A model generated the notes under the pieces. The model was not told where the DNA came from. It made no database searches and saw only the letters and a list, made by a program, of their open reading frames with translations. Positions 27,383-38,839 of a stretch of DNA of 64,000 bases are shown piece after piece. The DNA comes from Spiroplasma endosymbiont of Crioceris asparagi (GTDB taxonomy: Bacteria > Bacillota_I > Bacilli_A > Mycoplasmatales > Mycoplasmataceae). Each line of letters starts with the position of its first letter. Within the stretch, counting starts at the first letter, position 1. The DNA lies in the NCBI RefSeq assembly GCF_964020035.1, contig NZ_OZ026475.1:186001-250000 (forward strand). The letters run 5' to 3'. The position numbers and the translations under genes were made by a program.

Positions 27383-29518
27383 ATGCAAATTAAAAATTGA
27401 TTTAAAACTTCAGGATTTAAAAAGTCAAAAAACGACGGTATTTTTAAGTTATTTTTAATATCAATTACAAGCTTTGTTTTGTTGTTTTTAACATTGATTA
27501 TTTTATTTATATTTATTAAATCAATCCATGTATTTAAAGAAGTAAAGATTTGAAAATTTATTTTTTCAGATAATTGAAATCCGGGAAAAGATAATTCGTC
27601 AACTGCCACATATGGAATTCTAGGAATTATAATTTCTACAATTGTAATGTTGGCTTTTGCATTAATAATTGCAATACCATTAACAATATTTTCATCACTT
27701 TATATATGTGAATATATGAGTGAGCGTGGAAGAAGAATTATTATTACTATTACTCAATTATTAGCCGGTATTCCTTCAGTTGTATTTGGGTTGTTTGCTG
27801 TAAGTCATATTGGTAATCTAATGGTATCTTTAGGAGCAAAAACTCCTGGAAATTTAATGACAGCTTCAGTTACATTGGCCTTTATGTCGCTACCAACAAT
27901 GATCACATTATCAGTAAATGGAATTGCCGCAGTTCCAGAATCATATCGTTTTGCTTCAATTGGTTTGGGGATTTCTAAAGAAGCAACCACAATGAAAATT
28001 ATTTTTAAATCAGCGTTGCCTAAAATTATTACAGCTATTGTTATGGGAATGGCAAGAATCATTGGAGAAACAATGGCTGTAATTCTTGTTGCTGGTAATT
28101 CGGCTGGTGGGTTAAATACAAGTAATGGATTTGGTGGATTTATATTTTCTTCACTAAGAACACTTTCAGGAACTATTGGAATTGAAATATTAGAAAATTC
28201 AGGAAAAACTCATGAATCCGCTCTTTATGCCATTGGATTAATTTTATTTATTGTAATCATTATTATTAATTTAATAGTTTTAAGTTTATCAAGAATGAAT
28301 GCAAAAAAAAGTTCAAGAATTTCAGCAAGAAAAAAATCACATAAAAATTATCAACACTGAACATATAAATATAAAAGATTAATTATTAATAAAAAGAAAC
28401 TTGGACTTGATGAACAAAGAATGAGTTTATTAATGAAAACAAGTGGTGAAAATAAATTATCAAAAACAATGTATAGTTGATTTTATAAAATACTAATGTT
28501 AACTTCATTATTTATTATTGTTGCTTTTACACTATGAATTATTTTTTCTATTATCTTTAATGGGGTTGCTGGATTTCAATTTTCTGCATTCAACTCCATA
28601 AGTGGTAGTGGCAGTCAAGACGGTATCATTTCTACAATTCTTGTTACAATCTTGCTAGTTATTACAACAATGATATTTGCATTGCCATTAGCATTATTTT
28701 CTGCAATATACTTTAATGAATACGCCAACAAAAAAGCATTCTTTACCAAATTCTTAAGATTTGCAATTAACATATTAGCTTCAACGCCATCGATTGTGTT
28801 TGGTATATTTGGATTAACCTTATTTTTAATTACAATGCATATTCCTATGTCGGTCTTAGCTGCAGGATTAACAATGACAATGGTTGTCTTGCCCACACTA
28901 ATAATTACATTTGAAGATGGTTTAAGCGACGTGCCCATGGAATATCGTGAAGCAGCTTATGGTATGGGAATTAGAAAGATTAAAGTAATTTTCTTGATTA
29001 TTTTACCATCGGCTACAAGGGGAATTGTTACAGGAACAATTTTGACAATTTCAAGAATCATTGGTGAATCAGCTCCGGTGTATTTAACATTAGGAACAAC
29101 AGTAAGAATGCCAAGTGAAGGATTACTTTCACCAGGAGCTACATTAACAACAAAAATTTATATGTTAGCATCAGAGGGAACTGGTAACAATTCATTAGGA
29201 ATTGCTTATCAAATGTCATTAATAATTATTTTAATTATTTTTGGATTAAATTGATTAAGTAGATATTTAGCAGAAAAACTTGATCCATTAAAAAAACCAA
29301 TTCCTGTAAAAGAAAGAATTAAATTAGCTCAACAACGAATTGAACGTTTATTTTCAAAAAACACAATTATTTCAATAAATAAGTGATTTATTAAAAAAAG
29401 TAAATCAATTAAATTGCTATTTAATCACAATAGGAATAAAACCATAATAAAGAATGCAAAAGAAAGAAAGAAAATTATTAAAACAATTATAGAAGAGGAG
29501 GAGGATGACAATGGATAA
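27383..29518 (+). CDS. pstCA: Fused phosphate permease PstC-PstA
   Basis: A single 711-residue frame holding two binding-protein-dependent permease domains. The first half (about 20-320) has the EAA-type loop [17 protein letters not shown] near residue 186 and resembles PstC; the second (about 365-640) has [16 protein letters not shown] near 519 and [17 protein letters not shown], as in PstA. They are joined by a charged linker of about 45 residues containing several Trp (TGA) codons. A further basic tail of ~75 residues ends in an acidic EEEEDD run. In most bacteria pstC and pstA are separate genes. The last 14 bases overlap the pstB start. Confidence 0.93.
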
Positions 29519-33140: not shown

Positions 33141-33173
33141 ACTATGATATTCTATAAATGAAAATTAAATATT

Positions 33174-33264
33174 CTTATTCAGAACTGCATAGAGAAACAA
33201 CTCGTCAAGGCAGTAGCAACCTACGGAATGCAAGGTGCTTAAATAGGGGGGAACCATCAATAAG
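33174..33264 (+). promoter_or_regulatory. SAM-I (S-box) type riboswitch aptamer
   Basis: Between ymdB and metK. P1 is CTTATT (33174-33179) with AATAAG (33259-33264). P2 is ACTGC (33184-33188) with GCAGT (33210-33214), with an inner GAG/CTC helix and asymmetric internal loop. The highly conserved core AGCAACC (33215-33221), a short P3 and AAGGTGCTTAAAT (33232-33244) match the S-box core GCAACC...GGTGCTAA. P4 is tiny (GGGGGGAACC region). The aptamer is compact compared with Bacillus examples. With metK as its gene, SAM as ligand is the natural reading; ligand specificity is inferred from motif and context. Confidence 0.75.
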
Positions 33265-33278
33265 GCTAACTTTTGTTT

Positions 33279-33303
33279 AAATATTCCCAGGAATATTTTT
33301 TTT
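33279..33303 (+). terminator. Riboswitch expression-platform terminator
   Basis: AAATATTCC (33279-33287) pairs with GGAATATTT (33290-33298), followed by eight or more T residues, 20 bases before the metK start. Placed directly after the aptamer, it would stop transcription when SAM is abundant. Confidence 0.8.
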
Positions 33304-33323
33304 ATTAATAAGGAGAAATTAAC

Positions 33324-34460
33324 ATGAAAATATTATTTACAAGTGAATCTGTTTCAGAAGGACACCCAGATAAAATTTGTGATCAAGTATCTGATGCAAT
33401 CTTAGATGAATGTTTAAAACAAGATAAATTATCACGTGTAGCGTGTGAAGTATTTATTTGTGATCAGAAAATGATTATTGGTGGAGAAATTACAACTAGT
33501 GCCAAAATTGATTATGACAAAATTGCTCGTGAAGTAATTAAAAAGATTGGTTATGAAGATGAAACAATTGGTTGTGATTGAAGAACTTTAAAAATTGAAG
33601 TTATGGTAAATACACAATCACCCGACATTGCCTTAGGATTAAAAAATGAAGATGATTTAGGAGCTGGCGATCAAGGGATTATGTTTGGTTATGCCACTAA
33701 TGAAACTGATTCTTATATGCCCTTAGCAATTAAACTTGCGCACGAATTAGCCCAGGAAGCTTCACGATTACGTAAAAGCGGAAAATTTAAATGAGCAAAG
33801 CCGGATATGAAAACTCAGTTTACAATTGACTATACAAATAAAAATGAAATTAAAATTGATACAGTTTTAATTTCAGTCCAACATGACAAAGAATATATTG
33901 AAGCAGAATTTAAAAATTATATTAAAAATGAAATCATTTCAAAAATTGCAAAAAAATATAATTTAAATAACGATTATAAAGTTTTAATTAATCCAACTGG
34001 ACAATTTATTATTGGCGGTCCAAAAGGGGATGCTGGATTAACTGGAAGAAAAATTATTGTTGATTCATATGGGGGATATGCTCGTCATGGTGGCGGTGCT
34101 TTTAGTGGTAAGGATGCCACTAAGGTTGATAGATCAGCATGTTATATGGCAAGATATGCAGCTAAAAATTTAGTAGCAGCTGGTTTTGCTGATAAATTAG
34201 AAATTCAAATATCTTATGCGATTGGTAAACCACAACCTGTGTCAATTTTTGTAGAAACTTTTGGAACTAATAAGGTATCTATGGAAAAAATTTATCAAGC
34301 AGTCAATGATAATTTTGATTTTAGTGTTTCTAACATTATTAGAACATTAAACTTAAGAACTCCAATTTTTTCACAAACAAGTACTTATGGTCACTTTGGT
34401 AAAGAAGAATTACCATGAGAAAAATTAAATTTAGTCAACAAACTAAAAAAATACTTATAA
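33324..34460 (+). CDS. metK: S-adenosylmethionine synthetase
   Basis: Makes SAM from methionine and ATP. 378 residues, normal. ATP-binding [13 protein letters not shown], the [12 protein letters not shown] loop, [15 protein letters not shown] and the [17 protein letters not shown]+ and active-site segment are all intact. TGA codons at about 33579, 33792 and 34416 are Trp. The gene is preceded by a SAM-type riboswitch with terminator, which gives feedback control by its own product. AAGGAG precedes ATG 33324. Confidence 0.97.
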
Positions 34461-36163: not shown

Positions 36164-38839
36164 ATGTTAAAGAATAAGAAAAAAAATGCTAAAAAACAAC
36201 ATTGATTAAAAGATGAAACAATTTTTTCTTGTGCAAAACAATCAAAACAATCATTACTACAAGACTTTAATTTAAAATTTTTTGGTGATGCTTCTAATCG
36301 AAAGACCCGAATTTCAAAATATGGATTAAATACAACAAAAATTTCTAAATTTAATCATATTTTATATTTTTTAAAAGAAACTATTGAACCATTTAATATC
36401 TTGTTGTTTGTAATGATTTTTATTGATTTAGGAATATATTTTTTTAAAGCCCCTGAGCACGGTCAAACATCAAATGTTGACAACTTAGTTTCTGCAATAA
36501 TTTCATTTATTCTTTTATCTTTAAATATGTTTGTGGCCCAATTTCTAGGTTATAAAAGTTATAAAGTTTCTAAAGAATTATATGATGTTATTAACAATAG
36601 GTATAATGTTGTAAATTATCAAATTGATGATTTATCAAAAGTAGATATTCCACATTTACAAAGTAAAGTGTTTTCTATTGCAAGAAATTCCTTAACTATT
36701 GGAGATGTCGTTTTATTACAAAAAGGAGACATTGTTCCTAGTGATATGAGAGTTCTATGAGCTTCTAATTTATCAGTTAATGATAATCATATTAGGGGAA
36801 GTAAAGTAAAAGTATTTAAAACAGCTGAATATATGCCAGCAAAATATATTTATGATTTACAAAATATTTTATTATCACAATCACAAATTATCTCTGGAAC
36901 TGCATTGGCAATGGTTACAGGTGTGGGTGAAAATAATTCTTCATTTAAATTATTGTCACAAGAAACATTAGAAAATCAATCTTTCTATAAAAAAGGATTA
37001 AAAAGATTGATGATTGGAATTATGCTATCAATCTTAGTTGTCTTTCCGGTGGCTTGTGTGGCACATATTTTATGAAATCCAAATTCTAGCTTATTAGAAT
37101 CAGCGCTTTTTGCAATTAGTATTATCATCTCATTAACTCCAGAAGCGTTACCAGCGCTTGTTGCATTTAATCTTTTATATGGAGCATCACAAATTAAAAA
37201 TAAAAAAGTAATTATTAAAAACTTTGATTCTATTCAAGATATGGGTGCTGTTAATTTACTAATTACTAATAAGTCAGGTCCGGTTGTTAAACAAAGATTT
37301 ATTTTGTATAACACAATAAACTACAATGAAAAAAAATCAAATTATGTTTATAACCTTGCTTTCATGAATGCCTATTTCCAAAATTCACTAAATTATAAAT
37401 ATGAAAAAGTTATTTTAGATCATGAAAAAAATCCCGAAAGCATTGTTAAATATTGAGAACTAGTTTCTACAAAAGAAATTGATCTTTATAGAAAAATTGG
37501 GACTATTATAGTCAAAAATAAACTAACAGGTAAAGCTTTGCAAATAACAAAGGGTACATTTAAAAATGTTCATAATATTACTAAATTTGTAAATGATAAT
37601 GGCACAATCGTTCCGTTTACTCCAGAAATGAAGGCAAAGCTTTATGAATATGTTAATAACCAAATAGATAAAGGTTTTAAATCAATTCTTGTTTTAACTA
37701 AAGAAATTAAAAATATTAATGATCCAATTGTTGAAGATAATTTAGTTTTTGAAGGAATCATGCTATTTCAAAACCTTGTACAAGAAGATGTTAAAGAATC
37801 TTTAACAAGTTTACTTAAATATAATATTGATTTTAAAATGTTTTCATCAGATGATGAAATGACCACAATGTGGGCTGCGAAAGAAGCTGGAGTTCCAAAT
37901 ATCAACTTTTCTAAAACATTAGAAATGGGATATCAAAATGATAAAAAAGAAATTATTGAAGAAGTAAACGTTTTTGCAAATTTATCTCCAAGACAAAAAG
38001 CATTGTTAATTAATGAATATAAAAAACAGGGAAATGTTGTAGCATATTTGGCCAATGGCCGAAATGATACTGTAGCAGTTAAAAGGGCAGATGTGGGTAT
38101 TGTTCCCGAAACTGCCACACCAATATCTAAAATATTTGCTGACATTATTGTTAAAGAAACAAAAATTTCTAATATTGATGAAGCGTTTGTAATTGGAAGA
38201 AAAACATTTATTAATTCAATTAAATATATACAATTAACATTTGCTATTAACCTAGGATTGTTATTATCACTTTTTGTGACTAATCTTTTATTTGATTTTG
38301 TTCCTTTAAATTCAAATGAATTATTATTACAATCACTGTTAATTGATATCTTAAATTTTGCCTTTATCTATGATGTTGTTGATAAACAAACTTTAAAGAA
38401 CCCAGTAAAATGAAACCTAAAAAGAATTGCAATTTTTTCACTCTGAAACTGTTTATTGCCAATGTTTGTGTCGATATCGAACATTGCAATTGTAGCTTAT
38501 GGGTTTGGTTGAAAAGATGAAGTAAACGCGAAAGAAAAAATTCAAACAGTTTATTTTATTGAAAGTTTTTTAACTAGATTATTACTATTATTTATTTATC
38601 GAACTGAAAAATTATCATTAATTAAATCACGACCAAGTGCAAAATATGCACTAATAGTTTTAATGGTTGCCTTAGCAATGATTGCATTAACCTACACTCC
38701 TTGAATTGACACCACATTTGATATGAGCACACCAGACTCATGATGATGGGGAATGTTAGCGGGAATAATATTTGTGACGTGAGCACTTGGAGAATCAATC
38801 AAAAAACTATATTTATATATATTTAAAGAATGATTTTAA
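36164..38839 (+). CDS. P-type ATPase-like protein lacking the catalytic motifs
   Basis: 891-residue protein with the layout of the magnesium-transporting MgtA group: N-terminal cytoplasmic region, paired spans near 80-97 and 108-128, A domain, spans near 285-330, TPEALPALV in M4, P and N domains, and a C-terminal block of five or six spans. Alignment by eye with the MgtA pattern is continuous, yet each catalytic motif is changed. TGES is RGSK (211-214); the phosphorylated DKTGTLT is NKSGPVV (N369); TGDN is SSDD (561-564); GDGxNDA is ANGRNDT (630-636), which keeps ND. Without the aspartate it cannot form the phosphoenzyme. Over 20 Trp codons, mainly TGA, stay in frame with no stop or shift, so the gene looks maintained. 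GGGAGTT precedes ATG 36164. Substrate unknown. Confidence 0.85.

Follow-up and report, generated by a model that had tools for sequence, protein, structure and literature searches.

A compact SAM-I riboswitch before metK in a Spiroplasma endosymbiont, with a possible 5'-edge antiterminator

Introduction

In the canonical S-box platform, as described in excerpts of two studies, P1 and the terminator co-occur when ligand is bound (B. subtilis yitJ, PMC3656099; spermidine variants, PMC10853860), and the antiterminator uses the right shoulder of P1 (PMC10853860, PMC3656099). Full-length RNA increases when P1 is removed by truncation from the 5' end (excerpt of PMC10853860). Mollicutes go unmentioned in the excerpt of PMC2258182 consulted, and our search for literature on SAM-I/S-box riboswitches in Spiroplasma or Mollicutes returned, among the matches listed, none on the element considered here.

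That element lies in the metK leader of the Spiroplasma endosymbiont of Crioceris asparagi, within a 64,000-nucleotide stretch of contig NZ_OZ026475.1 (hereafter the window). With the SAM-I family (RF00162), the leader shares a full-length covariance match, the four-helix junction, the pocket bases, the metK gene and a terminator platform. It differs from that family in its shorter P2, P3 and P4, in the lack of standard k-turn pairs, in a loop contact that appears weak or absent, and in a predicted antiterminator drawn from the 5' edge rather than from the P1 3' strand. Folding also predicts that loss of this 5' edge would increase termination, whereas the truncation in the excerpt of PMC10853860 had the opposite effect. 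The element is a genuine, compact SAM-I (S-box) riboswitch of an already known kind, with a variant periphery and a variant expression platform.

Results

Identity and layout of the metK leader

The leader is organized, from 5' to 3', as follows:

33145-33153 (+): probable extended -10 promoter TGATATTCT, proposed from its motif, with a predicted transcription start at about 33160
33160-33172 (+): transcribed 5' flank, containing the start (33167) of AAATATTC, identical to the left terminator arm
33167-33176 (+): predicted antiterminator strand (flank and first part of the P1 5' strand), with 33289-33298 as partner in equilibrium folding
33172-33266 (+): SAM-I riboswitch aptamer (RF00162), by cmscan and the family-trained model R1
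33173-33179 (+): P1 5' strand, 7 pairs with 33259-33265, with covariation
33184-33214 (+): P2, its internal loop without standard k-turn pairs (1b.1n A.A, 2b.2n A.U), from a census of 33 aptamers
33215-33239 (+): P3, including the SAM-pocket bases at 33217-33219 and 33236-33238, from model alignment, covariation and contact-base census
33248-33255 (+): minimal P4, from the RF00162 alignment and the sequence
33259-33265 (+): P1 3' strand, pairing with 33173-33179
33270-33280 (+): spacer, predicted partner of J3/4-P4 (about 33239-33249) in nascent-chain folding
33279-33303 (+): intrinsic terminator with arms 33279-33287 and 33290-33298 and a T run to 33303, from the sequence and a hairpin census
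33324-34460 (+): metK, S-adenosylmethionine synthetase, the controlled gene (TIGR01034, 556.6 bits)

The metK frame, read with TGA as tryptophan, opens with the ATG at 33324. Within the aptamer, GCAACC occupies 33216-33221 and GGTGC 33234-33238. As the original prediction had it, the flank before P1 duplicates the left terminator arm, since AAATATTC stands at both 33167-33174 and 33279-33286; its complement GAATATTT is found at 33291-33298. A promoter pattern, TGNTANNNT, occurs 21-38 nt upstream of P1 in 20 of 36 leaders.

A search of the leader alone with permissive filters (cmscan) gave an RF00162 match at 33172-33266 (+) of 37.4 bits (E 3.3e-7, model positions 1-108 of 108), a score below the curated gathering cut-off of 44.4 bits; indeed, no SAM-class match reached the Rfam gathering score when the whole window was scanned. 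Across the 701,400-base genome, RF00162 has a single match, at the metK leader (E 2.1e-7). It is also the best of its clan there, a lower match of the same clan having been dropped, and none was listed up to E = 10 for SAM-IV, SAM-I/IV or the SMK box (SAM-III) after clan competition. Model R1 scores the aptamer at 82.2 bits, the window sequence being among its 33 training sequences. The Infernal search that had been proposed as a check thus returned a full-length match, and P1 and P3 are conserved in relatives. Together with the covariation described below, these results bear out the claim of a SAM-I-type aptamer followed by a terminator in the metK leader. Of the span originally claimed (33165-33303), the sequence features hold, but the aptamer proper is limited to 33172-33266.

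Distribution among relatives

Relatives were represented by 60 family genomes, all of which carry metK (60/60) and each of which provided its metK leader. An RF00162 search with strict filters matched 33 of them at E <= 0.1, 23 above the gathering cut-off; the aptamers of G051, G058, G016 and G019, absent from this search, were recovered in the metK leaders. The aptamer is directly upstream of metK in 36/60 genomes. One of the 33 matches, in G050 (E 0.007), lies far from metK and was therefore considered a chance match. Model R1, built from 33 distinct aptamers, matched 38/60 genomes at E <= 0.1, namely the same 36, G006 (82.3 bits, although outside the training set) and a weak G002 match (E 0.088) attributed to chance. 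True R1 matches were accordingly taken as 37/60, and no SAM-I riboswitch was recognised in the other 23, including all seven genomes of group g7.

At the scale of the order, 55/320 genomes match at E <= 0.001, and metK is also present at 12 of 20 such loci retrieved from other families. The frequency of metK-adjacent aptamers in the family and of matches in the order indicates that SAM-I before metK is widespread in this lineage. Riboswitch control of metK, originally presumed uncommon in a mollicute, is therefore not so (37 of 60 family genomes; 55 of 320 in the order).

Several leaders depart from the common arrangement. In G006 (leader L156), the riboswitch (237-331) is followed by an amino-acid permease gene (426-2024) and then by metK, which suggests a possible role of the permease in SAM-controlled methionine uptake. 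Three g9 genomes (G032, G038 and G047; leaders L095, L101 and L110) are without riboswitch: a similar promoter-like motif, TTTGNTATTATTA, is followed almost immediately by the ribosome-binding site of metK, as would result from deletion of the aptamer and terminator. In leaders of g8, the large-genome group (e.g. L080 and L088), an inverted repeat GTTGT...ACAAC is found in the interval from the -10 box to P1.

A conserved pocket and a variable P2 k-turn

The aptamers were compared in an alignment (A1) of 33 rows, the consensus structure of which was written from one row. In P1-P4, 92.2% of cells are paired, a figure biased towards that row, and changes on both sides are seen in 12 of 25 pairs. 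Covariation amounts to 0.316 versus 0.154 in shuffles, a value reached by 0/500 of these, and slid structures score far lower. Support for P4 is weak (81.8% of cells paired, both-side changes in no pair); in the window this helix is as minimal as was claimed, a GG/CC stem of 2 bp closed by a GNRA-type loop, GGAA.

For the SAM contacts we assumed positions A6, U7, G11, C44, A45, A46, U57, G58, C59, A87 and U88 (T. tengcongensis numbering). All 11 bases are present in the window aptamer. Across the alignment, 8 of the 11 positions are invariant (33/33) and U57, G58 and C59 are kept in 32/33 rows, the exception at all three being G004, which appears shifted by one column.

The P2 internal loop is far less uniform. 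Standard k-turn pairs (G.A/A.G) occur in 19/33 aptamers, which are all those of g9 and g12 in A1. In the window, A.A and A.U replace G.A and A.G, so that the tandem G.A pairs have lost both their G bases and no standard k-turn is formed. The corresponding pairs are G.A/A.A in G004 and, in g8, G.A/A.U in 9/11 rows and A.A/A.U in 2/11. Neither k-turn G.A pair is formed in the aligned G051, the sister species that, with the window's genome, represents the genus; judging from these loops, the standard P2 k-turn is missing in this genus. According to the excerpt of PMC4316175, A1nC, which disrupts the 1b.1n pair in the k-turn of another SAM-I RNA, abolished SAM binding; a changed 2n base was tolerated, and an RNase P pk-turn was able to substitute for the k-turn, a usual but non-defining feature. 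The loop contact would comprise one or two A-U pairs at most (P2 loop AAACAA versus J3/4 TTAAATA).

Terminator and predicted folding

A hairpin and T run precede metK in 36/36 aptamer-bearing leaders, and in the window the intrinsic terminator between aptamer and metK excludes the ligand-free fold in silico. In equilibrium folding of the RNA 33160-33305 without ligand, 33167-33174 pairs with 33291-33298 (probability 0.95) and the terminator falls to 0.035. Forcing P1 restores the terminator to 0.98, and removing the flank to 0.94 (0.84 with slightly different RNA ends). Across these calculations, the terminator stands at 0.03-0.10 without P1 and at 0.94-0.98 with P1 forced. When start and end of the RNA are varied in 24 combinations, terminator probability ranges from 0.02 to 0.26 in the free state and from 0.89 to 0.95 with P1 forced. 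The antiterminator helix (33167-33176/33289-33298) uses the lower part of the P1 5' strand, and forcing it together with the inner P1 costs about 10 kcal/mol; helix and P1 are thus mutually exclusive, which rules out an inverted logic in which the flank helix would be compatible with P1. The idea of a flank antiterminator competing with P1 is hence supported by folding with and without the P1 constraint: forced P1 brings the terminator back, and without P1 the flank holds the right arm. Its other expected sign, conservation of the pairing, failed to appear (see below).

Nascent-chain folding suggests an order of events in which the aptamer forms first, the spacer 33270-33280 next pairs with J3/4-P4, and the right arm is captured last, with P1 dropping from 0.85 (RNA to 33268) to 0.01 (RNA to 33280). 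In an RNA reaching to 33323, equilibrium returns the terminator to 0.89 even without P1, because the ribosome-binding region becomes the partner of the P1 5' strand. The antiterminator would therefore act only co-transcriptionally, with polymerase near the T run. Sequestration of the Shine-Dalgarno sequence by the P1 5' strand, predicted in the full leader, was discarded as a control layer, as it has the wrong sign for metK; at the site of this pairing, the G051 leader has AATTAGGAG where the window has AATAAGGAG. The same kind of folding, applied to 29 leaders (7 of the 36 being dropped), gave a high terminator probability in the free state in many relatives, so that equilibrium folding alone does not reproduce switching across the family.

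Flank pairing against chance and in relatives

In the window, AAATATTC occurs 15 times for 13.9 expected. As substitutes for the flank, 3/300 random window 13-mers equal the real sequence in suppression of the terminator, and the same holds for 5/300 base-shuffled and 13/300 dinucleotide-shuffled flanks; two tests of the flank/right-arm duplex energy against dinucleotide shuffles gave p = 0.066 and p = 0.107. The excess of this pairing over chance is thus modest, with a chance probability of 1-11% depending on the null.

Duplex tests on relatives covered 27 of the 36 leaders, 9 near-duplicate g8 leaders having been dropped; they supersede an early test with a 12-nt flank, single-base shuffles and 28 rows (including 6 of 14 g8 leaders). 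Related species are counted as independent, which makes all the combined p values optimistic. Over these 27 non-redundant leaders, the flank showed no excess of pairing with the right terminator arm over dinucleotide shuffles (combined p 0.24), and it was outdone by a control region located before the predicted start of transcription (0.0008). No such match was found between the flank and right arm of G051 (p 0.25). The conservation in relatives that had been expected of this pairing was therefore not observed. Pairing of P4 GGGG with C-rich terminator arms was likewise rejected as evidence, being not above shuffles (combined p 0.66).

The G051 leader (L063) resembles that of the window in genus, aptamer class and the complementarity of its 5' edge to a terminator arm. 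The strands differ: in G051, the P1 5' strand and J1/2 (TTATTCAGAAC) form a 10-bp pairing with the left arm, whereas in the window the flank faces the right arm. This 10-bp pairing is reached by 0/5000 shuffles and 0/5000 random 16-mers, and in nascent folding the left arm is captured until the right arm appears. A wider test, of all of the 5' edge with the terminator region, exploratory since it was designed after the G051 result, gave 5/27 leaders at p <= 0.05 (combined 0.0005), namely G004 (0.002), G028 (0.002), G051 (0.005), G017 (0.030) and G057 (0.040). The 3' side gave 2/27 in the same test (combined 0.05).

Other genes in the window

A P-type ATPase-like protein with E1-E2_ATPase and Cation_ATPase_C domains is encoded at 36164-38839 (+). 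It carries TNKSG in place of the phosphorylation motif DKTGT, so that the catalytic aspartate is apparently missing. At 27383-29518 (+), a single frame of 711 aa contains two BPD_transp_1 permease stretches and appears to be a fusion of two phosphate-transporter permeases; ABC ATPase and PhoU genes follow.

Discussion

The metK riboswitch of the window is a member of the SAM-I family, is conserved among relatives and is placed, with a terminator, before the gene for SAM synthetase. We infer that SAM is its ligand and that its logic is OFF: very probably, it reduces metK transcription at high SAM levels. SAM bound in the P1-P4 junction would lock P1 (33173-33179/33259-33265), allowing hairpin 33279-33298 to form and RNA polymerase to stop at the T run. 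Without SAM, folding predicts that J3/4-P4 would pair with the spacer 33270-33280, breaking P1, and that the freed 5' edge (33167-33176) would pair with the right arm (33289-33298), giving readthrough into metK. The gap of 5.8 kcal/mol in the folding of the window leader could be paid by tight SAM binding. Whether this 5'-edge antiterminator operates in the window seems to us a matter of roughly equal chances.

Its main competitor, a reading to which we give a little under an even chance, is a canonical S-box platform in which the P1 3' strand and J3/4-P4 form the antiterminator against the left arm (GGGAA 33249-33253 and TTCCC 33284-33288, for instance, could pair in this way), the copy in the flank being a coincidence due to AT richness. 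The chance-level frequency of AAATATTC in the window is consistent with such a coincidence, as is the P4 pairing with the left arm (-7.3 kcal/mol) with a canonical antiterminator. Pairing of the P1 3' strand exceeds chance over the 27 leaders (combined p 0.007, rows not independent), and in most g9 relatives the nascent-chain partner of the arm is the P1 3' strand or P4. However, the P1 3' strand of the window pairs weakly with the left arm (-1.4 kcal/mol), and the P4 pairing attains 0.07 at equilibrium versus 0.95 for the flank helix.

The altered periphery might also reflect decay, SAM binding having been lost with the k-turn and loop contact and metK being set by a leaky terminator. The RF00162 score below cut-off, the loss of both G bases from the tandem pairs of the window and the P2 internal loop of G051, which appears shortened from its sequence, would fit this scenario, but the pocket bases are retained in the window and in G051, compensatory changes maintain P2 and P3 pairing, and 11/11 g8 aptamers in A1 have been retained before metK although they, too, have no standard pairs; we regard decay as improbable. 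A ligand other than SAM has a precedent in the spermidine variants (excerpt of PMC10853860). These variants, however, alter bases of J1/2 and the P3 internal loop (by the criterion in the same excerpt), changes that are absent from the window aptamer, whose bases there fit the SAM-I consensus, and the downstream gene makes SAM; another ligand is accordingly very improbable.

Beyond the SAM-responsive switch itself, the 5'-edge pairings raise a broader proposition, which we put forward tentatively and hold to be somewhat doubtful: the S-box switching strand may have moved from the P1 3' side to the aptamer 5' edge in this genus and separately in G004, G028 and G057, perhaps also in G017 and G025, non-homologous 5'-edge antiterminators thus evolving repeatedly around a fixed aptamer. 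If so, flank, P1 5' strand and J1/2 would capture either terminator arm without SAM, the antiterminator would be made from the first bases of the transcript, and removal of the 5' end would turn the gene off, contrary to what holds for a canonical S box.

In any case, metK-adjacent SAM-I aptamers with a degenerate k-turn raise the question of what replaces this motif, a requirement according to other work. The riboswitch is in itself unremarkable and widely distributed in the lineage, its antiterminator being lineage-specific and possibly drawn from the 5' edge. A conserved aptamer accompanied by fast-changing antiterminators, some of them possibly at the 5' edge, would offer a natural series for the rewiring of expression platforms.
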